NCBI GenBank assembly: GCA_947167515.1
Contig: CAMVIM010000022.1
Coordinates: 1 to 64,000, forward strand
DNA length: 64,000 nucleotides
DNA from: an uncultured Prevotellaceae bacterium
GTDB taxonomy: Bacteria; Bacteroidota; Bacteroidia; Bacteroidales; Bacteroidaceae
Direction: 5' to 3'
Part shown: positions 7,911-64,000 of the stretch, one piece after another
Layout of the letters: each line of letters starts with the position of its first letter
How positions within the stretch are numbered: the stretch's first letter is position 1
The notes under the pieces: model-generated
What the model saw: the letters and a program-made list of their open reading frames with translations, nothing else
Told to the model about the DNA's origin: nothing
Databases searched by the model: none
Program-made: the position numbers and the translations under genes

Positions 7911-8401
7911 ATCATCTTGATATCGAACAACGAGTTGCAGAACAATATGCCAAAGAAACGGGCATGTGGATAACGATGGACGATGTTCTCGACTTGGGTG
8001 TGCCAGGGCCAAGTGGAAACGAAAATGACACCTATGTTTCAAACGATATCATTTATAAGGTGAACAACCTATTCAATACAGGTAGCATTCTTCGTTTGCT
8101 TGATAGAATAATATGGCATAATAATCTTTTTTATGAAACATCTTATAACTTGTACGGCTTTACAGGTTTTGAAGGTCGTACCATTATGCCAGTGCTGCAG
8201 CAACGATTGGTGAAAGATGCAGTCCCTGCTACAACTGTTGAGATTGAAACCTATATGGCTGCTATTGGATTCACTAAGCAGAATAATGAAGGTAGATATA
8301 CAAATGCAGAGTATGAAGTGTGGGATGTTGTTCCCCGCAATGTGTTGAGAGACAAGGATGGGGATATTTATGTGATTGATGCAGAAATGAAAAGATTGTA
8401 A
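7796..8401 (+). pseudogene. fragment of putative polyvalent protein kinase-like domain (mobile-element associated)
   Basis: Frame open upstream of the listed ORF (...VNHLDIEQRVAEQYAKETGMWITMDDVLDLGVPGPSGNENDTYVSNDIIYKVNNLFNTGSILRLLDRIIWHNNLF...PRNVLRDKDGDIYVIDAEMKRL); in-frame stop at 7793-7795 and no good start. Confidence 0.5.
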
Positions 8402-8410
8402 GAAGGAGAA

Positions 8411-8730
8411 ATGAATAGATTCTTGCTTCAATATGTCTATGTACTGTTGTTGATTGTCACTTTGCAGTCATGCGGTACTTGTTCACATCGTCATGTGGGC
8501 ACAAATGGTGCAGGGGTCTCTCAAGTGAGTCATGGGCGAGAGGTGTGGATGGTGATGATTCCAAAGGAATTGGTTTTATCTGTAGAAATACGGATGGGAA
8601 CAGGAAGAAGGATTTCTATGTTAATACGATTAGGCAAGTTGAAAGAATCACTGGCTATCAGTTCTTCCCAAACTTGAGCGATTCTATTCGAGATCAAGTG
8701 TATGACATAGATGATATCAATGTGTGGTAA
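8411..8730 (+). pseudogene. truncated, frameshifted DNA/RNA non-specific endonuclease-like lipoprotein
   Basis: Lipoprotein signal MNRFLLQYVYVLLLIVTLQSC in one frame; nuclease-like C-terminus GIGFICRNTDGNRKKDFYVNTIRQVERITGYQFFPNLSDSIRDQVYDIDDI in another. Confidence 0.5.
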
Positions 8731-8872
8731 CTTTAATGTATACAAGGAGGAACATAGCTTCTCTCTTCATACCCACACACCACTATTTATAACTCCCTTC
8801 CACATCCTCCCCCACTCCCCTGCCATGTCTTCACGCTTCTGTCAGTCGTTATCTCTCGGTTCTGTCAGGCAT

Positions 8873-9052
8873 CACTTCAAGGGTAATAACGAGTGAGAGA
8901 GCGAGGTTGATACGGGTGAGAGGCTGGGGAGGATGCAGGTGACAGAGGGAGGAGGATACGGGTGCGAGATGGAGGGGATGACGAGTGGACGAACGTGGTG
9001 GATACGGGTGTACGATCGTGATGGATACAGGTGTGCGTTCGGTGAAGAGGTG
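8873..9052 (-). repeat. degenerate 23-bp tandem repeat (about 7 units)
   Basis: Minus-strand units start CACCCGTATCC; plus-strand units end at 8895, 8918, 8941, 8964, 8987, 9010, 9033, each 23 nt. Confidence 0.85.
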
Positions 9053-9118
9053 AAAGGGGGGCATTACACAAAACAAAGATAAAAATGGGACGAAAGAGAG
9101 CTGATTTTCATGTGAAAT

Positions 9119-9176
9119 TGCACGAAAACGGTCGCTAACATAGTAAAAACAACCCCTCTGCGACCGTTTTCGTGCA
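9119..9176. repeat. perfect 17-bp inverted repeat
   Basis: TGCACGAAAACGGTCGC (9119-9135) / GCGACCGTTTTCGTGCA (9160-9176). Confidence 0.9.
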
Positions 9177-9205
9177 TTTTTCTTGGCGGTTTGAAGAAAA
9201 AGAAG

Positions 9206-9275
9206 TACTTTTGTATCACGAGAACCCGCCAAGCCTCTCAACGATGCTTAAATCGGCGGGTCGTTTTATTTTTAT
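9206..9275 (+). other. -7 box followed by hairpin and T-tract (possible tiny RNA)
   Basis: TACTTTTG (9206-9213); ACCCGCC (9224-9230) / GGCGGGT (9255-9261) then cgttttattttt. Confidence 0.35.
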
Positions 9276-9449
9276 ACAATGAGTAACAGAATTACATACC
9301 AAAAGACATACACCAATGCACACGATCTAACCCAACACATTAGTTCTGAAGTAACCTTTTAAGCCCCATGAAGAGGGGTTGAAATGTTAAAAGAAGCGGG
9401 GTGGTAAAAAAATGGTGATGATAAAATTGGTTGTTTGTGTAAGAGTGCT

Positions 9450-9457
9450 TACCTTTG
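9450..9457 (+). promoter_or_regulatory. -7 box TACCTTTG
   Basis: TACCTTTG upstream of the 9574 gene, leaving a leader of >100 nt. Confidence 0.5.
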
Positions 9458-9573
9458 TGCCAAATTTCATAGGGCCGTGATAATAACTACTGAGACAGTA
9501 GCCTCCGGATTACAATTACACCTTATCAGGACATTTAGTTAGTTACGAGAATTCAACAAAACAAATAAGGCCT

Positions 9574-13735: not shown

Positions 13736-15331
13736 TTACCTTTTTGACACATCCGCCACGATGCGTTCCAATGCGATGACCAGACGGTCAACCTCTTCTT
13801 TGGTGTTATACACCGCAAAGGTGGGACGCACGGACATCTCGTAACCGAGGGCACGGAGGGCTGGTTGCGCACAGTGGTGTCCGGCACGCACGGCTATGCC
13901 CTCTTTGTCGAGCAACTGTCCCACCTGAGGGGCAGGAATGCCCGGAATGTCGAGCGAGATGACGCTGACACGCTTCTTGGGGTTGCCCATGATGGTGATG
14001 CCTGGGATGCGTGATATTTGCTGTCGAGCATACTCGGTGAGTTCATGCTCATGGCGTTCGATGTTGTGGATGCCCACACTCTGCACGAAGTCGAGCGCAT
14101 AACCCAACCCGATGGCATCGGCAATGTTAGGCGTTCCTGCTTCGAAGCGAGCTGGAGGCACGTTGAACTCGGTGTGCTCGATGGTCACATCCTTGATCAT
14201 GTTACCTCCACCTTGCCAAGGTGGGAGTTGTTCAAGCCACTCCTTCTTGCCATAGACCACCCCGATGCCCGAAGGCCCGTAAATCTTGTGGCCGGAGAAG
14301 ACGAAGAAGTCTGCGTCGAGTTGCTGTACATCCACCTTGGTGTGGGCGATGGACTGTGCACCATCGATGAGCACGGGGATGCCGTGGGCGTGGGCAGTGC
14401 GGATGATGCTTGCCACGTCGTTGATGGTGCCAAAAGTATTGTTCACATGACCTACGCTGACGAACTTGGTGCGGGGCGTGATGAGACGCTCCAATTCGCT
14501 GAGGATGAGGTCACCGTTCTTGTCGATAGGGATGGCGCGGAGTTCCGCCTTGCGTTCCCTGCTGATTTGCTGCCAAGGCACGATGTTGGCGTGGTGGTCG
14601 AGGGTGGAGACAATCACGTTGTCACCCTCTTCCAAGAACTTGCGTCCGAAAGTCTGTGCCACAAGGTTGATGCCCTCGGTGGTGCCACGCACAAAGAGGA
14701 TGTTCTCCTTGGCTGGGGCATTGATGAAACGCGCCACCTTCTCTCGTGCGCCCTCATACTGGTCGGTGCTTCGTGCTGCCAGCGTGTGTGCGCCTCGGTG
14801 GATGTTGGAGTAGTCCGTCTTGTAGAAGTGGCTCACTCCGTCAATGACCCTCAGAGGCTTCTGCGTGGTGGCACCATTGTCGAACCATACGAGGTCGTGT
14901 CCGTTCACCTTCTGATGCAGAATGGGGAACTGCTTGCGAATCTCGTCGGTGTTGACCGTGTCAGCCTCGTCGTAGTGGAGGTGCCGCACGATGTCCGTCT
15001 CTGGTATGCCAATGCCGAACCCGTTGTCAGTTGACAGTTGAGAGTCGAAAGTGGGCAGTTGGGCATCATCCGAAGAGGGCGCACTAGCAGGAGCAGACTG
15101 CCCCGATTGCAAGTCCTCGGCAAAGTACTTCTCCATCACTTTGCGGAAGAGGCACTGGTCAGCGGAACTCAGCCCACCAATCTGGGGTGCACCCCCTGCC
15201 AGGGAAGTGGCAGGAATGGGCAGTGATGACAAGTCCAACTCGTCTGGAGCCTCGTTCGGCACAGCCACCTGCGGCACTTGACCCCTATCCGGCAAGTCAA
15301 AATGGAAATTATCTAATTCGTTCAGATACAT
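13736..15331 (-). CDS. SufS-type cysteine desulfurase with long N-terminal extension (putative encapsulin cargo)
   Basis: Catalytic domain FPILHQKVNGHDLVWFDNGATTQKPLRVIDGVSHFYKTDYSNIHRGAHTLAARST...SGHKIYGPSGIGVVYGK...RAGHHCAQP; about 150-aa Pro/Ser/Ala-rich N-terminus. Confidence 0.95.
   Translation of the reverse strand: MYLNELDNFHFDLPDRGQVPQVAVPNEAPDELDLSSLPIPATSLAGGAPQIGGLSSADQCLFRKVMEKYFAEDLQSGQSAPASAPSSDDAQLPTFDSQLSTDNGFGIGIPETDIVRHLHYDEADTVNTDEIRKQFPILHQKVNGHDLVWFDNGATTQKPLRVIDGVSHFYKTDYSNIHRGAHTLAARSTDQYEGAREKVARFINAPAKENILFVRGTTEGINLVAQTFGRKFLEEGDNVIVSTLDHHANIVPWQQISRERKAELRAIPIDKNGDLILSELERLITPRTKFVSVGHVNNTFGTINDVASIIRTAHAHGIPVLIDGAQSIAHTKVDVQQLDADFFVFSGHKIYGPSGIGVVYGKKEWLEQLPPWQGGGNMIKDVTIEHTEFNVPPARFEAGTPNIADAIGLGYALDFVQSVGIHNIERHEHELTEYARQQISRIPGITIMGNPKKRVSVISLDIPGIPAPQVGQLLDKEGIAVRAGHHCAQPALRALGYEMSVRPTFAVYNTKEEVDRLVIALERIVADVSKR
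15027..15061. repeat. CAGTTGA-family heptad array inside the cysteine desulfurase N-terminal linker
   Basis: TCAGTTG ACAGTTG AGAGTCG AAAGTGG GCAGTTG; encodes LPTFDSQLST. Confidence 0.8.
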
Positions 15332-52658: not shown

Positions 52659-52729
52659 TGTGCTATGGTGTAATGGTAACACTACAGGTTTTGGTTCTGT
52701 CATTCCAGGTTCGAATCCTGGTAGCACAA
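52659..52729 (+). tRNA. tRNA-Gln (anticodon TTG)
   Basis: Cloverleaf: TGTGCTA/TAGCACA acceptor; anticodon loop TTTTGGT; T-arm CCAGGTTCGAATCCTGG. Confidence 0.95.
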
Positions 52730-52789
52730 CTCCAAGGAAAAGACATCCCAGGTTCACCCCAACCAAAGATGTCATTTTTTCTCCTTATC

Positions 52790-52863
52790 GGACTTGTAGC
52801 TCAGTTGGTTAGAGCAACAGACTCATAATCTGGAGGTCCCAGGTTCAAGCCCTGGCTGGTCCA
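52790..52863 (+). tRNA. tRNA-Met (anticodon CAT)
   Basis: GGACTTGTAGCTCAGTTGGTTAGAGC; anticodon loop CTCATAA; T-arm CCAGGTTCAAGCCCTGG. Confidence 0.9.
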
Positions 52864-52912
52864 CATTGGAAATCAAGGAGTTACATCAAAAATGTAGCTC
52901 CTTTTTCTTTGT

Positions 52913-53116: not shown

Positions 53117-54010
53117 TTATAACTTAAATATTCTACAATTCTGCAACCCAGTATGAGCAATGAAGTCTGTTATTCGTTTTTCATCATTTTTGGTGTGATA
53201 TGATATTGTCCATGGGACATTCGTTCCTGTCTGCTGCACAACTTCTATCATATATGGGTAATCTACTGGACAGAAAGAATGACCAATAACAACCACTTTA
53301 GTAATATCACCAAGTGAATTGAAGAAGGCTTGGTTGTCCTTTATTATGCCATCGGTATCTTTTACCAATTCATTCATCCATGCTATAACTTTGCTCCATG
53401 TATCTTGCTTGAAGACAAGTTCTGTTTCGTCCTCATATGCATCGTTGGGGTCGCGTGGCTGATTGTGACCAATGATATAGTTATCATGTTTCAGCCTTGA
53501 TCCGTGGATATGGAGGATATTCTTTTGAGGTATGTTATAGACTTTTTCCAAGGTCTCAGTGTAGTTAAAGGTCAGATAGCGACTTTCAGCTGGCAAATCA
53601 AACTTTGCCTTTGCCTCGTTCGCGTCAATACTTTCCACCCATTGATTGAACGTCTCTAAGAATTCATCCAAGATTGGCTTAAACAACCAATCGGGGCCAT
53701 CTTCAATGGCTGCCACTGAGCGAGTCGGGTGATCATAGTCAATACCTTCGTCAGGACTACACCAGTCCACTATATCTTCTTCGTCATATTCCCCCAGGGC
53801 TCTCTCTATGTCCCCCCAAAAGTCCCTATAGTTACTAAAGAAAGTCTCCATCATCTGTTCAAGGCGGTTATGGCCCTGCTGTCGCACCCACTCCGCAAAA
53901 TCGCTATACTGCGACTTTATTTCATGTGTTATATCAAACCCGTTGCCAATAATGAAAAGCGTATGCTTGTTCTCCACATCGATTGCTGGAAATAGTGATT
54001 TCTGGTTCAT
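53117..54010 (-). CDS. AbiH-family abortive infection protein
   Basis: LFIIGNGFDITHEIKSQYSDFAEWV; LTFNYTETLEKVYNIPQKNILHIHG; VVIGHSFCPVDYPYM. Confidence 0.85.
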   Translation of the reverse strand: MNQKSLFPAIDVENKHTLFIIGNGFDITHEIKSQYSDFAEWVRQQGHNRLEQMMETFFSNYRDFWGDIERALGEYDEEDIVDWCSPDEGIDYDHPTRSVAAIEDGPDWLFKPILDEFLETFNQWVESIDANEAKAKFDLPAESRYLTFNYTETLEKVYNIPQKNILHIHGSRLKHDNYIIGHNQPRDPNDAYEDETELVFKQDTWSKVIAWMNELVKDTDGIIKDNQAFFNSLGDITKVVVIGHSFCPVDYPYMIEVVQQTGTNVPWTISYHTKNDEKRITDFIAHTGLQNCRIFKL

Positions 54011-54200
54011 CTTACATGGCTTTTTACTTCAATTTAGACGGCTCATAACACAAGCAACTCAAATGTGAGAACTTTGCAGTATAAATGGAATAACCTATTA
54101 CAAACAGTTTCTAGGCAATTGTGCATTATAGCAATATGTCCATCAATACCAATATTTTCAAGAAACTTAATTGTATCCATTATTGTCAACTTTATTGTAA

Positions 54201-55472
54201 TTATTGCGCTATTCTATTATTATACCGAAGTCTTATCTGCTCCTCAGCCTCGTTTTTATTTGCTAATCCAAATAATTGTACGAAACGCTCAACCATTTTA
54301 TTTCTGTCTTTTGGTGCCAGAATATCAGAAGAATACATTTCTATCAACAAATATTTGGTAATACTACCATTTCTAACCAACATCTTCTTTGAAGAAGTAT
54401 CCCAAAGTATCTTAGCCCAATAATCTGATGAGACATTCCTATCAAGGAATGATGCATAATTATTTATTATGGTTTTGTAGTCATAATTCTTTTGAGTTGT
54501 CATAATTTGACTAACAGCAGAGACAAATGGCAGAAGTCCAACTGGACGGAAAAACAGATTTCCTCCTTCTCCAACTGGTCTATACTTAAGTGCAGACTCA
54601 TTACTTTTGTCATTGATGAATTCTTTTAGTTCAGAAAAACTATCTCTCATTTCATCCCAAAATGATTTAGTGAAGTCATAGAACGCTTTTATCTCTGAAT
54701 CATCAGGCCGTGCCCTTTTATAATCTTTTAGTTTTTCGTTTGATAACAACTTGTCTGTCTCCCTTAAGTGATATGCCTTGAACAATTCATCGTGGCAGTC
54801 ATAGAGAGTCATCAAGGTCGTAAATGAACTTTTGTCCGTTGTTGGGATGGACTTAGAATTACTAATCTTTATCCGATTGTCAATGAACAACTTATGACTT
54901 TCCAACAACCATCGTGTTACAATAGCAACTATATCATCTTCATCAAGAGCTATAATATCTCCCTTCCCTACAGGTTTGGCGTATCTGTTAAGTATAGAGA
55001 AGATCCTTCGTGACTTGGCCATTCCCGTTGAGGAATTCTCATGTCCGATTAGCATGATCGGAACTGTGTCATTTTCATACTTCTTGCTTTCTTTCAACGC
55101 TGCCTTAATACCCTCTAGTCTATGTTGTCCATCCAACGGAAATATTTGTTCATTGCCATTCAACTCTAACAACCCAACATTCCCATACATGACATCACCC
55201 ACCTCATATCTTACCTCTCGCCATTGAGGGTCACCATCATACACAGCAAGAACCATTGCATTGAAAAAATGGTCATGATGCTTCAATATATAATCTTTTA
55301 TTTTGAGGTAGTTGTCCGTTAAAGAACGCTGTAAGGCTTCTTTCAAGAGTCCAGACTTATATAGTTCTTCCGAACTGCGTCTATTCACTAAAACCGCCAA
55401 ATCCTTAAATTTCAAATTCGTAATATAGTAAACGGTTTCACCGATATAACCTCTTATTGCTGGAAGTATCAT
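54201..55472 (-). CDS. DGQHR-domain protein (DndB-like)
   Basis: NEQIFPLDGQHRLEGIKAALKESKKYENDTVPIMLIGHENSSTGMAKSRRIFSILNRYAKPV. Confidence 0.8.
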   Translation of the reverse strand: MILPAIRGYIGETVYYITNLKFKDLAVLVNRRSSEELYKSGLLKEALQRSLTDNYLKIKDYILKHHDHFFNAMVLAVYDGDPQWREVRYEVGDVMYGNVGLLELNGNEQIFPLDGQHRLEGIKAALKESKKYENDTVPIMLIGHENSSTGMAKSRRIFSILNRYAKPVGKGDIIALDEDDIVAIVTRWLLESHKLFIDNRIKISNSKSIPTTDKSSFTTLMTLYDCHDELFKAYHLRETDKLLSNEKLKDYKRARPDDSEIKAFYDFTKSFWDEMRDSFSELKEFINDKSNESALKYRPVGEGGNLFFRPVGLLPFVSAVSQIMTTQKNYDYKTIINNYASFLDRNVSSDYWAKILWDTSSKKMLVRNGSITKYLLIEMYSSDILAPKDRNKMVERFVQLFGLANKNEAEEQIRLRYNNRIAQ

Positions 55473-55473
55473 T

Positions 55474-55995
55474 TTAGAAAGCTTTTACTTTGGGTTGTTC
55501 TTCTATTTTGTTTGGTATGTCCTCATTATACGGAGGGACAATAGAGCGGATTAATGCAATTTCGTTTTTCTCAATAGCAATATTATCCGTATCTGGAAAA
55601 TATCGATAATACAAATCGTTCTTCCAATTGTCAAACATTTCTTGAATCATGTATCTCTCATCTTTGAGATAGTGCATAGCCCTTTTACAAATATTCTCAC
55701 TTGGCGTATATAATGCTCGACCAATATACAATATGTAATATTCTGCAAATGGCAGATTGGGGCCCTTAAGATAAAACATATATAATCCACCTTTGTCTTT
55801 GGGCATATTTCTAATCTCATCAGAGATTTTGCCATCATTAAGATACTTGATCTCAGAAGACCAATTCGTGACATCTCTTATAGGATTGTCATTACCCACA
55901 AAGTTATCCATCCACCTTATGGGATTAGGGCGGAAAAGGATTTCTAATGATTTATCCTTGTTAAATGCGTTATAAGCTCTATATCTCATAATCAA
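55474..55995 (-). CDS. GIY-YIG-type nuclease-like protein
   Basis: KGGLYMFYLKGPNLPFAEYYILYIGRALYTPSENICKRAMHYL...IEKNEIALIRSIVPPYNED. Confidence 0.65.
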   Translation of the reverse strand: MIMRYRAYNAFNKDKSLEILFRPNPIRWMDNFVGNDNPIRDVTNWSSEIKYLNDGKISDEIRNMPKDKGGLYMFYLKGPNLPFAEYYILYIGRALYTPSENICKRAMHYLKDERYMIQEMFDNWKNDLYYRYFPDTDNIAIEKNEIALIRSIVPPYNEDIPNKIEEQPKVKAF

Positions 55996-56624
55996 TCCAA
56001 CGATTCAGGTACATCATCAAAATCTTCTGTATCTTCCTCTTTGTCTAGGAACCCGAGGAATACTCTCAAAAAAGCCGTCTCTTTGAAGAAGAAATTTGGA
56101 TTATCTTCCAACTTCTCTTGAATATAGTCAAAGCCATAGTTGGCATATTCCTCCATTTTTGTAATGAGGTCATCCACAACCTTTCGCTGGGTGATTTCGC
56201 CTTTATCTAGCGCTATGAAGTCTATATCCGTTCGGGCTATTAATGCAGCGAACATATATTCTCGCAAGCGTGGATATTGTGTTCGGCCAAGGCGTGATTC
56301 TCCTGTTCCCCAATTGGAAATGGCCCAACCGAAATGTTTCCTTTTTGCCTTATCTTCTATCAATGGCTTGGTTTTGTTACTGTACAGACCTATAAAAAAA
56401 GCCAAGATGAACACCTCATAGCCTGCACCATATATCTTACCTCTTACTTCCTGATACTGGTTCACTCCCCTTCCGTAGTCTGAGAACACGCTTATCACGG
56501 AGTCTTGGTAACGCTCTTCCCATTCGGGATTACGCTTGCCCCAAAGTTCATATAATGATTCCATATTACTTGATTTTTTCAATTGTTGTACGAACGGTTG
56601 CCATATTCTTTGAGTCAAAGCCAT
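55992..56624 (-). CDS. hypothetical protein of Dnd-like island
   Basis: 210 aa, overlaps both neighbours in the operon; RLGRTQYPRLREYMFAALIARTDIDFIALDKGEI. Confidence 0.6.
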   Translation of the reverse strand: MALTQRIWQPFVQQLKKSSNMESLYELWGKRNPEWEERYQDSVISVFSDYGRGVNQYQEVRGKIYGAGYEVFILAFFIGLYSNKTKPLIEDKAKRKHFGWAISNWGTGESRLGRTQYPRLREYMFAALIARTDIDFIALDKGEITQRKVVDDLITKMEEYANYGFDYIQEKLEDNPNFFFKETAFLRVFLGFLDKEEDTEDFDDVPESLD

Positions 56625-58734
56625 CGGCTTTCTTTATACGATAGACACAACATGTCAGTTTCTCTATTTCCGGAAAGCGAACCCTTCCTTTGGTGATGAA
56701 ATCCTTAGTCACAATGATACATTGTTTCTTCAGATTGTCAATCACATTATAGAAATTTTCTTCCTTCGAGTCACCAAAAGATGATGTAGCAGCATCAAAC
56801 ACGAGAGGATAATCTTCGTCACGCTTCTCTTGGGTAAAATCTGAAATAGCAAACAGTACAGATATATACATTACCGTCAACTGAGAACCAGAAGGTTTCT
56901 TGATTTCAGTACCGTTTGAGCTATATAGACGTATTTCAGTAGAATCATCTGCCGTTTGCCTTAATCGGATTTCACCGTGGAAATCGCTTGCACTAAGCTG
57001 CTCCAAATATCCATTTGCCTTATCCTGCATTTCAGCAAGGAAACGTCGAAGGTTCTCCTTTTTAGCAAACGCAAAGGCTTTGGCAATCTCTTCAAGAACA
57101 CGGTGAACATCACGATAAACCTTTACCTGAGAACTGGCGGGATTCAATGCGTCCATTTGCTTCTGCAATCCATCCATTCTTGTCTGAAGCTGTGCCAACT
57201 CGCCATTCAGTTCTGTAAGCCTCACTTCTGCCCTACCTTTCTGTTCAAACAGCCCTTTGATATCGTTGAAATCCTTTTCCAAAATAGCCTCTGAGACATT
57301 TCCAGCTTGAATTAACAGGCGCGATTTCTCATCTATTATGTCCTGTATCTGTTGCTCCACTTCTTTCAAGTCCTCTGTCAGACGCTCCACCAGCCCCATG
57401 CGGTCACTAATTTCACGGACAAGCCCGGAAACCTGTGACTCATTGCTACCGCTAAGCGAAATGCTCAGATTATGCAGCGATTCAATGTTGCCAAACTTGA
57501 AAAGTTCCTTCTCTTCAATGGCTTCCTTCTGACTCTTCTTAGCGGCCTCCAACGCTATATGCCTCTTATACTCCTCCAGTTTCTGCCACATAAAGTTGTA
57601 TGCTTCCGACCCTTCTTCAGCCGGACGACCACACACCTTGCAGATATGATCGTTCAGCATTTCCTCCATTGTTTCCTGATTGGGCAGATACCAAGGAAGT
57701 TCAGGCGCACCATTCACCAATGCACCTTGCATTTCCTTAACTGCTTCCAATTTTCCTATTTCAATAGCCTTTTGACGCTCATAATCTTTTTCTTGCTTTC
57801 TCTTTTCCCTACTGAGTGCAGAGCATTTTTGCTTGAACTCCTGTAAAACATCTGGGAAAGCGCAAAGAACCCACATTCTATCAAGAAGAGCGTGGTTATA
57901 ATCGATATAACTTATCTGGGCTTTTAATTTCCTTCGCTTTTCCTCCTTGTTCTTTAGCCGGCTTTGTATGTCTTTATATCTTTCAGATGTTTCCTGGTTC
58001 TCTTCAAGTTCTCCCAACCTCTTAGAAAAGACCTCCAACGATGTTGTTTTGTCTTTAATATCTCTCTTTTTAGTTGAGATTTCCTCAGCAAGACGATTTA
58101 TCTGCAATTCTAATGACTTAGCCTCACCTGCAACCTTCCTGTCAGACTTCATTTCTTTCAGGTATGCAGCATTCGCTTTCTCCTCAAAAGATGAGGTATA
58201 TTCTACAAGATCATCGAACTTTCTTATATCTGAGAATTTGTCAACCAAATCTTTCAGAGCTGTAGCGTTGTCGAAAACATTAAGTTCCGATTCACCCTTA
58301 AACATACTAAACCGTTGAATAAAGGCATCGTAGCATCTGTCTATAAGATTCTTGCCACTCACTTGAATACGTTCAGAGCCAAAAGTTTCATAACCTCTAT
58401 AAACAAGTTGTCCGACTCTAAAGAAGTCTTCGCTAACACGTTCAACGGAAAAAGACTTTTCTACAGACTTTTCACCATCATGTTCAAAAAGCATGGCAAC
58501 GGAAACTTCTTCTTTCTCGCCTATTTCCATCTTTGACCTTCGCATTTCTGACATGTGGTCAATATTGCCCTTATCAATAGTTGTATTGAACAACCATTGT
58601 AGAGCATCAAAGAAAGTTGTCTTACCGTCGCCATTATCTCCGAGAATAAGGGTCAGACCGTCTGAGAACTCAAATATATTATTATCTCCATAGTAACTAC
58701 GGAAATTTTTGATTCGGATTTCCTTGATTATCAT
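56566..58734 (-). CDS. DndD-like / SMC-Rad50-type AAA ATPase
   Basis: IKEIRIKNFRSYYGDNNIFEFSDGLTLILGDNGDGKTTFFDALQWLFN; hinge CxxC (HICKVCGRP); LVFDAATSSFGDSKEENFYNVI. Confidence 0.85.
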   Translation of the reverse strand: MIIKEIRIKNFRSYYGDNNIFEFSDGLTLILGDNGDGKTTFFDALQWLFNTTIDKGNIDHMSEMRRSKMEIGEKEEVSVAMLFEHDGEKSVEKSFSVERVSEDFFRVGQLVYRGYETFGSERIQVSGKNLIDRCYDAFIQRFSMFKGESELNVFDNATALKDLVDKFSDIRKFDDLVEYTSSFEEKANAAYLKEMKSDRKVAGEAKSLELQINRLAEEISTKKRDIKDKTTSLEVFSKRLGELEENQETSERYKDIQSRLKNKEEKRRKLKAQISYIDYNHALLDRMWVLCAFPDVLQEFKQKCSALSREKRKQEKDYERQKAIEIGKLEAVKEMQGALVNGAPELPWYLPNQETMEEMLNDHICKVCGRPAEEGSEAYNFMWQKLEEYKRHIALEAAKKSQKEAIEEKELFKFGNIESLHNLSISLSGSNESQVSGLVREISDRMGLVERLTEDLKEVEQQIQDIIDEKSRLLIQAGNVSEAILEKDFNDIKGLFEQKGRAEVRLTELNGELAQLQTRMDGLQKQMDALNPASSQVKVYRDVHRVLEEIAKAFAFAKKENLRRFLAEMQDKANGYLEQLSASDFHGEIRLRQTADDSTEIRLYSSNGTEIKKPSGSQLTVMYISVLFAISDFTQEKRDEDYPLVFDAATSSFGDSKEENFYNVIDNLKKQCIIVTKDFITKGRVRFPEIEKLTCCVYRIKKADGFDSKNMATVRTTIEKIK

Positions 58735-58958
58735 ACGTTGTCAATTAAATATTTGTCTATTTCCTTCCAAAGTTCTTTTTCAGAAGCCCCTTCTCCTGTA
58801 CGTTTAATAATCTGTGCGACAGCATTGATTACGTAATTGTCAGAATCAAGTGCCTGCTCTATCGTACTGATGTCAGAAGGAGAATAATCTCCGAACTTCA
58901 TCAGATTCTCATCAAGCAAGACAGCTTGCAGCATTTTGTTGTCATTATTTCTTGCCAT
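58731..58958 (-). CDS. small DNA-modification-system-associated protein
   Basis: 75 aa between ATPase and helicase with overlapping or near-overlapping junctions; EGASEKELWKEIDKYLIDNV. Confidence 0.6.
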   Translation of the reverse strand: MARNNDNKMLQAVLLDENLMKFGDYSPSDISTIEQALDSDNYVINAVAQIIKRTGEGASEKELWKEIDKYLIDNV

Positions 58959-58960
58959 AA

Positions 58961-61234
58961 TCAGAATAAAGATATGTTATAATATGATAATATTTCGTTT
59001 AACTCATTATATGCAAAGTCCGCATTTTCTGATAATACAGCAAAGTCACGAACTCTTTTCAATTCACTTTTTATTAGACTACGTTCCATATTGTAGTTCT
59101 CCTGCGCCGAATTCACCTCAGGAGCCACAACCAAATCGTGTATTATGGCTATATGCTTGTCTGGATGCTTTCGTAATATACGACCTCTCCGCTGAATAAA
59201 TTGCCTTGGATTTCCTGTGCTAGCACAGAAAATCGCCATCTCGCTACGAGGAACATCAACGCCTTCATCAAGGCATTTCATAGAGGTCAAAACCTCAATA
59301 TCACCGCAAGCAAACTTTTCAAGAATCTCGTTTCGTTCCTTAATTCCTGATACGAATTTCTTCACGGTCGTGGTTTTGCTGACATCCTGTACAATCCTTG
59401 TGTACGTGTCAATCAGGTTATCAGAAAAGTCATCATCATTTACACTTTCTATGCTGTCAAAGACATCTGCTGTTTCATCATCAGGTCTTGTACCTTCTGG
59501 AACATAGACCAAAGTATATTTCAAATTTCCTTTCTCGGTGTATCTTTCCCGAACGATTTGTTGGAATATTACTTCTTTCTCTTGAGCCTTGTGAACAATG
59601 CGTTTCCGTTTCAGCAATAATCGCATCAAAATATCATCTCCTTTGGGGAATGATTCCTTTTCCAGATTAAAGAATTTAGCCAATTGTAATGAGATACGCA
59701 TATATTCAGCCATTTCTGCATCATTTAGATGTACTAGGTGTGGATAATACTTGTATCGGCAAAGGTATCCTTTATCAATAGCTTCTTTCATGTTAAACTC
59801 AAAGGTGTATCCGTGCTCACAGCCAAAGAATTCCATAATAGCTTTATTACCACTATCATCAAACTGACGTTCCGGCGTTGCAGAAAGTCCTATGCGACGA
59901 GCGAACTTAACCCCGCCCAACCTGTCTAATATTCTTCCTGCTCCCATGTTGTGTGCTTCATCAGCAATAAGTAGCATCTGTCGGGTAGTGTTCCTGCTAA
60001 AATCAACTAACTCACGGAAGATGTTTTCTCGTGCAAAGGAAGCATATGTCGCTATGATAATAAACGATGACTCTTCTCCGTCTATTTTGATACTCTCCTT
60101 TGTTTTTATACTATCAAGTTCCGTTTTCCATTTGGGATTTTTAGAACTTACCTTAGTAATATTATTAAAATGAAACCTTTTACATTCATCTTCCCATTGG
60201 TCAACCAGTGTTATCGTAGGGACGAGAATCATTGCTTTGTAAAAATGGAATTTCTTCCAGATGTTGAGCAGACAATTCAGCGAGGTAAGGGTCTTACCTG
60301 TTCCTGTAGCCATTGCGAAAAGCCCCTTTTGTTTTACTTTCCAGTTTTCATATGCTTGTTTCTGATAGTTTCGTGGCTCATCGAAGGGAAATCGTGGCTC
60401 CTTTTCATTTGAAACATCAATGCTTTGTCCCTCCAACTTTTTGATGATGCTTTCCACCTTCCTTTTTGCTTTATTTAAAACAGCTTGAATGTTTGGGGGA
60501 AGATTACCATTGAGACGTTTTGAAATAAGATTCTGTTCATCACGAATCAACTCTCCAATCTCTTTATGTTTAAAATTGGCATAGATTCCGGCTTTTACGT
60601 CATCGGCTTTCAGGTAAACGACAGAATCATCTCTACCAAAGAACGTACTTTCAAAATCCTCAGCTATATCATCTATCTTATATACATCACCCTGTCCATC
60701 CCAATCGCAGAAAGCCGTAAAGCTCTCTAAGTTATCAATTAGGGCAGTACGGGAAAAATTACAAGATCCTTCAAAGGCTACCCTGTTCAAACCATCAGAG
60801 AACAATCCGCATTTTGAATGGGCAATACCTTCCCCATCTTTGGGTACTACAATCTTTATCTCCAGCCTTTCATTTTTAATAAGCCAAGCCAAACATTCGA
60901 AGAAATGTTTATCTCTCTCGGACAGGGTACGTTTGACTTCCTCCAAGTTATTAAGGTCAAAAAATGGAATTAAAGCATCTGTCTCGCCTGCTATCATAGC
61001 TTGCTTGTCTTCGATGGAAAGAATATCATTGATAACCATCCGCATGCGTCCACCATTATAAAGAAACGTTGCAAATCCATCTGATAGAACATTAATAGCA
61101 GACGATGAGAAAAAGCCTAATTTAATGTCAAATTGTGTAGCATTACACAATGCCTCAGAGAAGAAACCAATCGGTTCCCATTCTGAGCGCGATTTGAATC
61201 GGCGATGTGGTGGATATGAGACTTCTTTGAGCAT
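58961..61234 (-). CDS. PLD-like domain + SF2 DEAD/DEAH helicase
   Basis: PLD-like IAHSKCGLFSDGLNRVAFEGSCNFSRTAL; helicase MATGTGKTLTSLNC, IADEAHNMGAGR, GLSATPERQFD, QFIQRRGRILRKHP. Confidence 0.9.
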   Translation of the reverse strand: MLKEVSYPPHRRFKSRSEWEPIGFFSEALCNATQFDIKLGFFSSSAINVLSDGFATFLYNGGRMRMVINDILSIEDKQAMIAGETDALIPFFDLNNLEEVKRTLSERDKHFFECLAWLIKNERLEIKIVVPKDGEGIAHSKCGLFSDGLNRVAFEGSCNFSRTALIDNLESFTAFCDWDGQGDVYKIDDIAEDFESTFFGRDDSVVYLKADDVKAGIYANFKHKEIGELIRDEQNLISKRLNGNLPPNIQAVLNKAKRKVESIIKKLEGQSIDVSNEKEPRFPFDEPRNYQKQAYENWKVKQKGLFAMATGTGKTLTSLNCLLNIWKKFHFYKAMILVPTITLVDQWEDECKRFHFNNITKVSSKNPKWKTELDSIKTKESIKIDGEESSFIIIATYASFARENIFRELVDFSRNTTRQMLLIADEAHNMGAGRILDRLGGVKFARRIGLSATPERQFDDSGNKAIMEFFGCEHGYTFEFNMKEAIDKGYLCRYKYYPHLVHLNDAEMAEYMRISLQLAKFFNLEKESFPKGDDILMRLLLKRKRIVHKAQEKEVIFQQIVRERYTEKGNLKYTLVYVPEGTRPDDETADVFDSIESVNDDDFSDNLIDTYTRIVQDVSKTTTVKKFVSGIKERNEILEKFACGDIEVLTSMKCLDEGVDVPRSEMAIFCASTGNPRQFIQRRGRILRKHPDKHIAIIHDLVVAPEVNSAQENYNMERSLIKSELKRVRDFAVLSENADFAYNELNEILSYYNISLF

Positions 61235-61236
61235 GA

Positions 61237-62247
61237 TTATATTTTATCTAAAATATGTGACAATTCCTCTTTTACTTCACCGATACTTTTTATTCTCCTT
61301 TCCGTTGAGTGGTATATCATTCTTTTTATTAGACTAAATATTATGTCATTCTCATCAAAGAAATCCGCTCTTTTAATACAGCCTATAGGAGCATTCCCTT
61401 GGAAAATATACCAAAACACCATTCCTAATTGAAAAATATCAGACTGCTCATTTATTTCTGTATTAATTCTTGTGTCAAACACTTTCTTTTCGTTTAAATA
61501 CTTATTCATAGCTTCTGGAGAAATCCATCCTTTTGGACCAATGATTCCTTTTGCATCTTCTATGTCATCATTTCGATAACGAATCAATCCTAAATCTCCA
61601 ATTTTCAGTTCTCTTTCAAATAATAAAATATTATCAGGTTTAATGTCCCTATGATAACAGTCAATTGTATGAAGTTCTCCTAACCCTGAAGCAATTTGAT
61701 AACATATTTCTACTTTCTCTTTCTTATCCAAATCATTATTTTCAAGGAATTGTTTTAAATCACAATCGGCACAATCCATCATATAAAAAGGGAAAAAGAA
61801 AACGGAGTCGTTCTTAACATTTTTGCATACAATATGCCCCCAATAATGAATTGGGATAATGTAATTTGAGCCCTGCTCTTTGCATTTCCGCAAACAGTCG
61901 ATTTCTCTATAAAAGGATTTGTTTGCTTTACTGACAGAAAAATTACGTGGAGTCCAATTATCAAAATCCTTTGATATTTTTAAAACCAACTGAGAGTCTT
62001 CATGAGAAGTACCATCATTCAAAAATAGTTTTAGCAACAAAGAATGAGCGCCTTTATTCCCTTTATCGCTTAATTGCTCTACTAAATAATTTACATTGTC
62101 AATTGTTAGTTTTTTGTCCCTTTTTATTGTGATACGCAAATTTTCACATTCGAATGGAGACACTATAGGCTTCATATCAATTTGTGACATGATACCTGGA
62201 ACATCAAAATTTGTTATTGTTATCGTTTTAAAATGATTATTCATCAT
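61237..62247 (-). CDS. Ser/Thr protein kinase
   Basis: CYHRDIKPDNILLFERELKIGDLGLIRY; GWISPEAMNKYL; SDIFQLGMVFWYIFQG. Confidence 0.9.
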   Translation of the reverse strand: MMNNHFKTITITNFDVPGIMSQIDMKPIVSPFECENLRITIKRDKKLTIDNVNYLVEQLSDKGNKGAHSLLLKLFLNDGTSHEDSQLVLKISKDFDNWTPRNFSVSKANKSFYREIDCLRKCKEQGSNYIIPIHYWGHIVCKNVKNDSVFFFPFYMMDCADCDLKQFLENNDLDKKEKVEICYQIASGLGELHTIDCYHRDIKPDNILLFERELKIGDLGLIRYRNDDIEDAKGIIGPKGWISPEAMNKYLNEKKVFDTRINTEINEQSDIFQLGMVFWYIFQGNAPIGCIKRADFFDENDIIFSLIKRMIYHSTERRIKSIGEVKEELSHILDKI

Positions 62248-63343
62248 AATACTTAAAACTAGAAAAATCAATAATATAATAATCTCCTACTTTCTTTAAT
62301 TCCTTGTCAAAACCATATTCTTGATACAAAAATGTATTAATCTCATTTATAATCTCATTCCCATCCTTATTCTTGTTACACAATAACGCTTCAAAAAAAT
62401 TCAAACGACTCTCTCGAGCCCTTTTTGAATTAGATTGACTGACACAATTTATTGCATAGTTTTTAAACGGTTCGCATTCTTCATTTGATGGAGTTATGAA
62501 ACCATTATCACTTATTGTAACCAGCTCATTATACATATTTAGTAACACTTCTTTGGATTCGCTTTTGTGACGATCTATAAAACAAAACAATGTATAGAAA
62601 TCGTTTCTTTGTTTATACCTTGTCTCATTTATTGGATGTTCTCTATTAAGATATTCTATAATATCCACAACCGAGGTACAATTGTCGTATAATTCGTTCT
62701 GTTCTTGTTCTGGAATCTGCATGTTAAATAGTTCTTCTACTGCATAACGTTTGTCTGTAATTCCAAATTTCAGATATGCGACAAGTTCCTCTATTAAACT
62801 TCTATTATTCATTCGAAGTTTTGTTTTATCTGTAAATATATCTAGATTAATGAGTGGTTGATAATCCATTATTTTATTTGCCAATGCTAAAAAATCAGAA
62901 TCGTGATATTGTGCTTGATTGACTTCTGCGGGATTTAAGTGCACACCTTTTTTGTTCACGAGAGAAAAGAATTCTTCAATAGATTCACCAACACTGAAAT
63001 TTTCTTTTGTTATTTCAATAATAACTAAGTGATAATCGAGAAATTTCTCAGTATCTGTTTCTCTATACCATTTTTTATTACTATCGCGGAACTCATTCCG
63101 ATAATATTTATAAATTGTATTTGCTCTTTGTTGTCCATCAACCATCTCAAAATTATCAGCCCCTTTATTCAAAATAAAAAAACTTGGCAACGGATATTTT
63201 TTATGAATAGAATCGATTAGGTCTCTTTGGTCTTTCGGTGTCCATATAAAATGTCTTTGATATGGAGGATTAAGATTCAGTTTCTTACTCTCAATTAAAT
63301 CAATCAATTCTTTGATTGTAATTTCTTTACTTTTATATTCCAT
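62237..63343 (-). CDS. DUF262 (GmrSD/SspE-N-like) protein
   Basis: LNLNPPYQRHFIWTPKDQRDLIDSIHKKYPLPSFFILNKGADNFEMVDGQQRANTIYKYY. Confidence 0.88.
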   Translation of the reverse strand: MEYKSKEITIKELIDLIESKKLNLNPPYQRHFIWTPKDQRDLIDSIHKKYPLPSFFILNKGADNFEMVDGQQRANTIYKYYRNEFRDSNKKWYRETDTEKFLDYHLVIIEITKENFSVGESIEEFFSLVNKKGVHLNPAEVNQAQYHDSDFLALANKIMDYQPLINLDIFTDKTKLRMNNRSLIEELVAYLKFGITDKRYAVEELFNMQIPEQEQNELYDNCTSVVDIIEYLNREHPINETRYKQRNDFYTLFCFIDRHKSESKEVLLNMYNELVTISDNGFITPSNEECEPFKNYAINCVSQSNSKRARESRLNFFEALLCNKNKDGNEIINEINTFLYQEYGFDKELKKVGDYYIIDFSSFKYYDE

Positions 63344-63349
63344 AAGTAT

Positions 63350-64000
63350 TTAAATAAAACAATTATTACACATTATATTGTCACCAAGAATATCCACTAG
63401 AGTAGTGCCTTTGTTGTTGGCTCGACTCTCGTTTTGTCGTTTGATAATATCGAGTTTTATCTGGCGGATTCGCTCAGGCTTTATCAAATCGACAAGGCTT
63501 TCATTCTGATTCCATGTATAGCCATCTTTCTCAAACTCCATCGCCTTAACATAGAGGTCGGGATGCTGCTCGTAGAGCCATATCCATTCTATCTTTTGCT
63601 GGAAGAAACAGAAGTAGCAGCCGGAGCGACTGCGGCAATAGGTGCCCGTCTGGCCATCCACTTCGAAAGGGATTTCTTCATAGTAGGCCGGTACTCCAAC
63701 ACCGCTTTCCCTCAGCAGACGGAAGATGTCGTCCTTCACAAGTACATCAGTATTGTCGAGCAAGGGGAACGAGTCGAGTTTGCCCACAGGATAGTCGGTG
63801 GTTTTCAGGAACTCGAACACGGCATGATTGAACAGTTTGATGCCGTAGTCCAGCAGGGCGTTCATCTTCTTCGAGTAATAGAACTGCTTGGTGATGGGAC
63901 GCTTCACGGTGTCCAGAATCTCGTCACGAAGGAATCCGTCAGGGCAAAGCCGCTCGTAGATGGCAACGATCTGGTCAAGATTCTCCTGATGCAGAAACTT
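63350..64000 (-). CDS. PAPS-reductase/DndC-like protein, 5' end beyond the window
   Basis: TYCRSRSGCYFCFFQQKIEWIWLYEQHPDLYVKAMEFEKDGYTWNQNESLVDL; the frame stays open to the window edge (KFLHQENLDQIVAIYERLCPDGFLRDEILDTVKRPITKQF). Confidence 0.75.
   Translation of the reverse strand, partial: KFLHQENLDQIVAIYERLCPDGFLRDEILDTVKRPITKQFYYSKKMNALLDYGIKLFNHAVFEFLKTTDYPVGKLDSFPLLDNTDVLVKDDIFRLLRESGVGVPAYYEEIPFEVDGQTGTYCRSRSGCYFCFFQQKIEWIWLYEQHPDLYVKAMEFEKDGYTWNQNESLVDLIKPERIRQIKLDIIKRQNESRANNKGTTLVDILGDNIMCNNCFI

Follow-up and report, generated by a model that had tools for sequence, protein, structure and literature searches.

A predicted SspBCD-PbeABCD phosphorothioation operon carrying two guest cassettes, one of which pairs a DUF262 protein with a protein kinase

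Gene content of the operon

The window analysed here is a 64,000-nucleotide stretch of DNA from an uncultured Prevotellaceae bacterium (assembly GCA_947167515.1, contig CAMVIM010000022.1, positions 1 to 64,000), and the subject of this study is the putative defence operon at positions 53117-64000. All ten genes are present among the open reading frames of the window, on the minus strand, with tight junctions and at nearly the coordinates given, as listed in an earlier annotation made from the DNA letters and their open reading frames (hereafter the sequence-only reading). In the direction of transcription they are sspD, a DUF262 gene, a protein kinase gene, pbeA, pbeB, pbeC, pbeD, a GIY-YIG-like gene, a DndB/DGQHR gene and an AbiH-like gene. 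The proteins were assigned to families with Pfam, NCBIfam and PADLOC profiles. By these assignments the core of the operon is a predicted SspBCD phosphorothioation module combined with PbeABCD, both already known. What is new are the guest cassettes, and the association of one of them with Ssp genes suggests an undescribed coupling of protein phosphorylation to marked DNA.

The gene at the window edge (63350..64000) is the 3' part of sspD, encoding an ATP-pyrophosphatase/PAPS-reductase-like protein. The contig is 64277 bp of a 3.68-Mb draft genome, and reading past 64 kb for the rest of the gene, as the sequence-only reading had proposed, gained 277 bp before the contig ended within sspD. The 308-residue open frame that runs up to the contig end lacks the first ~59 codons. 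It is SspD by PADLOC (3.6e-33) and shares 93% identity with the complete SspD encoded at the related locus L004. A complete homologue of this gene scored 286 bits with SspD against 20 bits with DndC and is preceded by genes for SspB (DUF4007, 2e-72) and SspC (1233 bits); sspB and sspC likewise lie upstream of sspD in the relatives whose sequenced stretch extends there. A Dnd-like island, with a DndC-like gene at the edge, had been proposed in the sequence-only reading; both labels were abandoned, since SspD and PbeABCD fit the profiles far better, whereas the DNA sulfur chemistry (phosphorothioation) predicted with them is supported. SspC and SspB (DUF4007) were not found in the window assembly, the DUF4007 search being silent in control genomes as well, and the gap is most simply explained by an assembly break at this point. 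As that reading also said, no desulfurase gene is linked within the visible part of the operon. Cysteine desulfurase-type genes occur elsewhere in the genome, one of them at 13781-14890 of the window contig, and in another bacterium iscS supplies the Ssp system (PMC8092258).

The four pbe genes follow in the order pbeA-B-C-D with small second and fourth members. PbeA (58961..61234), a PLD/HKD nuclease joined to a superfamily 2 (SF2) helicase, matches the PADLOC profile with 1114 bits over residues 11-752 of 757 and carries Pfam ResIII, Helicase_C and PLDc_2 domains. PbeC (56566..58734) is an ABC-type ATPase (Pfam AAA_23, 4.5e-21) with the CxxC hinge ICKVCG; in PADLOC its PbeC match (2.9e-23) is second to LmuB (3.8e-29). 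The 75-residue PbeB (58731..58958) gave no family match in Pfam, NCBIfam or PADLOC and is named by position and size; its gene is kept between pbeA and pbeC in relatives. PbeD (55992..56564) gave no Pfam, PADLOC or fold match and is named by position, size and conservation in Pbe loci; PbeD has been called the DndE cognate (PMC10853773). The sequence-only reading had placed these genes, including a "DndD-like" ATPase and an unassigned "210-aa" protein, in a Dnd-like island; instead they together form PbeABCD, and the last gene exists but more likely starts at 56564, giving about 190 residues. PbeABCD was first described with DndCDEA in Haloterrigena jeotgali (Xiong 2019, PMC6459918) and was later re-read as a CxC ABC-ATPase/DndE system (PMC10853773). 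Among the papers searched, one (PMC8053081) mentions SspBCD together with Pbe.

Exchange of cassettes at two slots

Comparison with L004 delimits an imported segment (61205..63346, minus strand) between sspD and pbeA, a position designated slot 1. The segment comprises the DUF262 gene (62237..63343), the kinase gene (61237..62271, with a likely ATG start near 62247) and the first ~30 bp of pbeA. The GIY-YIG-like gene (55474..55995) and the DndB/DGQHR gene (54201..55472) form the second cassette, in slot 2 after pbeD. PbeD loci were collected from one genome scan (29 loci) and, beyond these, from sampled genomes, and the sspD-pbeA junction was surveyed in the window and 34 relatives. Slot 1 contains no insert (closed, with gaps of -22 to 17 bp) in 24 of the 35 loci. 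It holds the DUF262-kinase pair in three (window, L016 and L019), GIY-DndB in four (L017, L030, L094 and L097) and a histidine-kinase-type (GHKL) ATPase with a receiver-like and a 220-residue protein in two (L029 and L095); the remaining two contain a 539/367/280-residue trio (L092) and a gene of 116 residues (L026). Slot 2 is occupied by GIY-DndB (window, L004 and L007) or by DUF262-kinase (L005 and L006).

Slot contents differ between loci with nearly the same core. L019, L029 and L030 have PbeC proteins 99-100% identical, yet each holds another insert in the slot. With 91% PbeC identity, L016 and L017 also differ in cassette, and differences are likewise seen among L095, L096 and L097. All cassette occurrences are separate on the PbeC tree (DUF262-kinase 3/3, GIY-DndB 4/4, GHKL 2/2). 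The PbeC of the window is 97% identical to that of L004, whose slot 1 is empty, and the DUF262-kinase cassette of the window is 87-88% identical to that of L019, with PbeA and PbeC at 60% and 53%. The DNA homology between the window and L004 ends 3 bp after sspD and restarts 30 bp inside pbeA, and the first residues of the window PbeA, MLKEVSYPPHRR, are those of L019, where the core relatives have MLKANVLWPGSRR. The breakpoints and the L019-like PbeA start thus indicate that the cassette was brought in by a recombination event, one end of which falls within pbeA. DUF262-kinase is a two-gene cassette that moves between predicted phosphorothioation loci. One and the same core with a kinase, a nuclease, a histidine-kinase-type or no cassette constitutes a natural comparative experiment.

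The GIY-YIG-like label given in the sequence-only reading is upheld by the GIY, YIG, R, E and N motif positions conserved in the protein family and by sub-threshold Pfam GIY-YIG matches in four of six family members tested, although the window protein itself has no significant Pfam match. A fold search returned nothing significant, the model having a mean predicted local distance difference test score of 52 and the GIY-YIG enzyme R.Eco29kI appearing only at E>1. Its partner matches Pfam DndB (3.5e-31) and TIGR03187 (6.7e-31), and DGQHR is invariant in four aligned homologues; at the DndB equivalog level it fails (TIGR03233, 66 bits versus a cut-off of 328), so that the DGQHR domain alone passes. 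GIY-DndB also occurs within the Dnd operon of L108, in the order DndC-like, SMC-type ATPase, GIY, DndB, DndE-HerA. Both main cassettes therefore combine a ParB-superfamily nucleoside triphosphatase (NTPase), with DGQQR in DUF262 and DGQHR in the DndB-like protein, and an enzyme, a kinase or a predicted GIY-YIG nuclease.

Other insertions were seen at related loci. A RhuM-like gene, judged from a look at its sequence, lies between sspC and sspD of L004 (3265-4269) and may mark a third slot. In L009 (10679-13080) a SIR2-domain protein and a P-loop-ATPase-looking gene follow pbeD and may be a slot 2 guest pair. The slot 1 trio of L029 (1385-5351) and L095 consists of a twin-HATPase protein, the receiver-like protein and the 220-residue protein; that this cassette is specific to phosphorothioation was rejected, a related histidine kinase with two genes preceding an N-6 methylase in Hymenobacter.

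The AbiH-like gene (53117..54010; Pfam AbiH, 3e-51) lies 190 bp downstream of the DndB-like gene, a position matched in L004; it is absent after DndB in L007. It is regarded as accessory, and we are unsure that it belongs to the operon. Directly past the downstream end are tRNA-Gln and tRNA-Met genes (52659-52864). Islands commonly integrate at tRNA genes.

The DUF262-kinase pair and its Ssp neighbours

The window DUF262 protein (368 residues; Pfam GmrSD_N, 6.8e-21) contains Y28-Q29-R30 and D69GQQR73, and the resemblance to SspE proposed in the sequence-only reading is confirmed by the family match and these motifs. Equivalence to the SspE tyrosine was drawn through the Y30-Q31-R32 residues reported in PMC9646914 rather than from a direct alignment. 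In SspE, Y30/Q31 sense the phosphorothioate (PT) mark (PMC9646914), and the DGQQR arginine drives the GTP hydrolysis that licenses the nuclease (PMC13251355). DGQQR is found in all 11 intact DUF262 homologues aligned. A DUF1524 HNH nuclease domain gave no match in the window protein up to E 0.1, and BrxU (7p9k) was the sole match in a PDB search. The kinase (Pfam Pkinase, 7.6e-21) belongs to the Ser/Thr type, and its Lys, HRD, DxG and GPxxWxSPE motifs are retained in each of the 12 homologues compared. In L065 (reverse complement 8372-9486) a frameshift breaks the DUF262 gene ahead of DGQQR.

The genome searches covered Bacteroidota and plasmids. A model of the kinase matched in 3 of 399 genomes of the family, and wider samples gave distant matches without Pbe. 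DUF262-kinase loci were accompanied by Ssp genes in 13 of 13 cases, two of them near-copies (L005 and L006, 97%), from three phyla: Bacteroidota, Alphaproteobacteria and Cyanobacteria. The sequence-only reading was right to regard a kinase as an unusual component of the operon; it is one half of a DUF262-kinase cassette, and with 13 loci found it is no oddity of the window genome. Four loci (L064, L065, L069 and L114) have the order SspB-SspC-SspD-DUF262-kinase without Pbe and converge on a GHKL ATPase of ~800 residues. In L107 SspBCD lies opposite that gene, followed by GIY-DndB, which indicates that the two cassettes are interchangeable there too. The L107 copy of the ATPase gave a weak HATPase_c_3 match. 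Facing or following Pbe-less Ssp loci, this conserved protein is possibly an undescribed PT-linked effector.

The plasmid loci extend the association. In two Asticcacaulis strains DUF262-kinase converges on SspD-C-B-A, and the second of these loci, retrieved by kinase similarity alone, showed the predicted Ssp neighbours. A Pseudanabaena plasmid has the order SspF-G-H-DUF262-kinase-SspA, with SspB also on the plasmid, and a Sphingopyxis plasmid (L112/L113) has the same order split by transposable elements. The Sphingopyxis DUF262 and kinase genes are ~38 kb apart, each adjoining a transposase, and the pair looks split by transposition. Remote plasmid kinases (24-27% identity) were found without DUF262 and without Ssp, and a search of viral contigs found no kinases closer than remote ones (23-32% identity). 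The open PubMed Central papers searched, supplementary tables excluded, contained no description of DUF262-kinase with Ssp.

The split Sphingopyxis pair, the L065 frameshift and the closed slot 1 of 24 of the 35 loci, which makes the cassette dispensable, would agree with a plain SspBCD-PbeABCD system carrying decayed or inert guest genes. However, the cassettes have been gained or exchanged repeatedly and the catalytic motifs are intact in every kinase and every intact DUF262 gene aligned, and we consider this explanation very improbable. A self-contained abortive-infection pair that merely settles in defence islands is also improbable, if less so: it would move independently of the Pbe core, as observed, and its nearest PADLOC kinases, MAD6 and PD-T4-6, are anti-phage systems, but such a hitch-hiker should be found beside other defence systems too, whereas every locus across the three phyla has Ssp genes, with the pair often a few bases from sspD or converging on it. 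Among known sspBCD loci, 2211 of 2678 have no known restriction partner (PMC8092258), and the DUF262-kinase module is a candidate for one of the missing partners. As a partner of Ssp, it would couple protein phosphorylation to an epigenetic mark on DNA.

Proposed function and comparison with known systems

The reading that we tentatively favour, at a little under an even chance, is that of an SspBCD-PbeABCD PT defence operon with two interchangeable cassettes, in which DUF262-kinase works as a split SspE or DndI. SspBCD would place sulfur on host DNA, and PbeABCD, judging from its homologues, would use this mark for restriction (virus exclusion). The DUF262 protein would read the PT mark or an infection-altered nucleotide state and gate the kinase, which would substitute for the HNH nuclease of SspE and phosphorylate host or defence proteins, halting phage growth. 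The GIY-DndB cassette would have the same split layout with a GIY-YIG nuclease as output. Since the pair persists at Pbe-less loci and travels among very divergent Pbe modules, Pbe is a less likely key partner for it than the PT mark or some host factor. A more specific form, in which a PT-reading DUF262 NTPase switches on the kinase as the first PT-gated phosphorylation branch of bacterial immunity, the cassette being interchangeable with GIY-YIG/DndB at fixed slots, seems to us unlikely on present evidence.

The gene content, the Ssp association, the exchange of cassettes and the intact catalytic motifs are observed, whereas we infer that DUF262 senses PT and controls the kinase and that the outcome is antiviral. 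Several points weigh against a split SspE. P-x-Y-Q-R and DGQQR characterize DUF262 proteins in general and are thus no proof of PT sensing, and the motif tyrosine is phenylalanine in 4 of the 11 aligned homologues. SspB and SspC are missing from the assembly, so that active phosphorothioation in the window strain is a prediction. Finally, DndB is reported to be a negative regulator in Dnd systems (PMC10853773), and by this precedent the ParB-like cassette member could be regulatory.

The chief competing explanation, which we take seriously but judge well short of an even chance, is a regulatory role. The kinase and a DUF262 nucleotide or PT sensor would then control the operon rather than attack phage, phosphorylating Ssp or restriction proteins so that restriction stays off until host DNA is marked or comes on during infection. 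The location of slot 1 between modification and restriction genes agrees with this, as do the DndB of the counterpart cassette, the histidine-kinase-type ATPase and receiver-like protein that slot 1 may hold, and the histidine-kinase two-component genes near Acinetobacter Ssp loci (PMC7464106, PMC12421847). However, the counterpart cassette also has a predicted nuclease, and the restriction partners are fully different from locus to locus (Pbe, SspFGH, GHKL or none seen), which makes a single restriction-module substrate unlikely.

Several described systems come close to the operon. MAD6 and PD-T4-6 resemble it in the kinase domain only, their partner genes being different. SspABCD-SspFGH (PMC8092258) shares SspBCD modification, and DUF262-kinase also stands beside SspFGH on plasmids, but the window has Pbe in place of SspFGH. 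DndI, a DUF262 protein fused to HNH, is joined to the IscS-DndBCDE modification operon (PMC11662687); the window likewise joins a DUF262 protein to PT modification, although this protein has no nuclease and the modification is Ssp instead of Dnd. SspABCD-SspE (PMC9646914, PMC13251355) has both SspBCD modification and a DUF262 NTPase with YQR and DGQQR; unlike SspE, the window protein lacks the HNH (DUF1524) domain and is accompanied by a separate kinase gene, and sspA is not linked. With PbeABCD-DndCDEA the window shares the pbeA-B-C-D order of PLD-SF2 helicase, small protein, AAA_23 ATPase and small last gene, whereas it has SspBCD modification instead of DndCDEA and, in addition, the two accessory cassettes.

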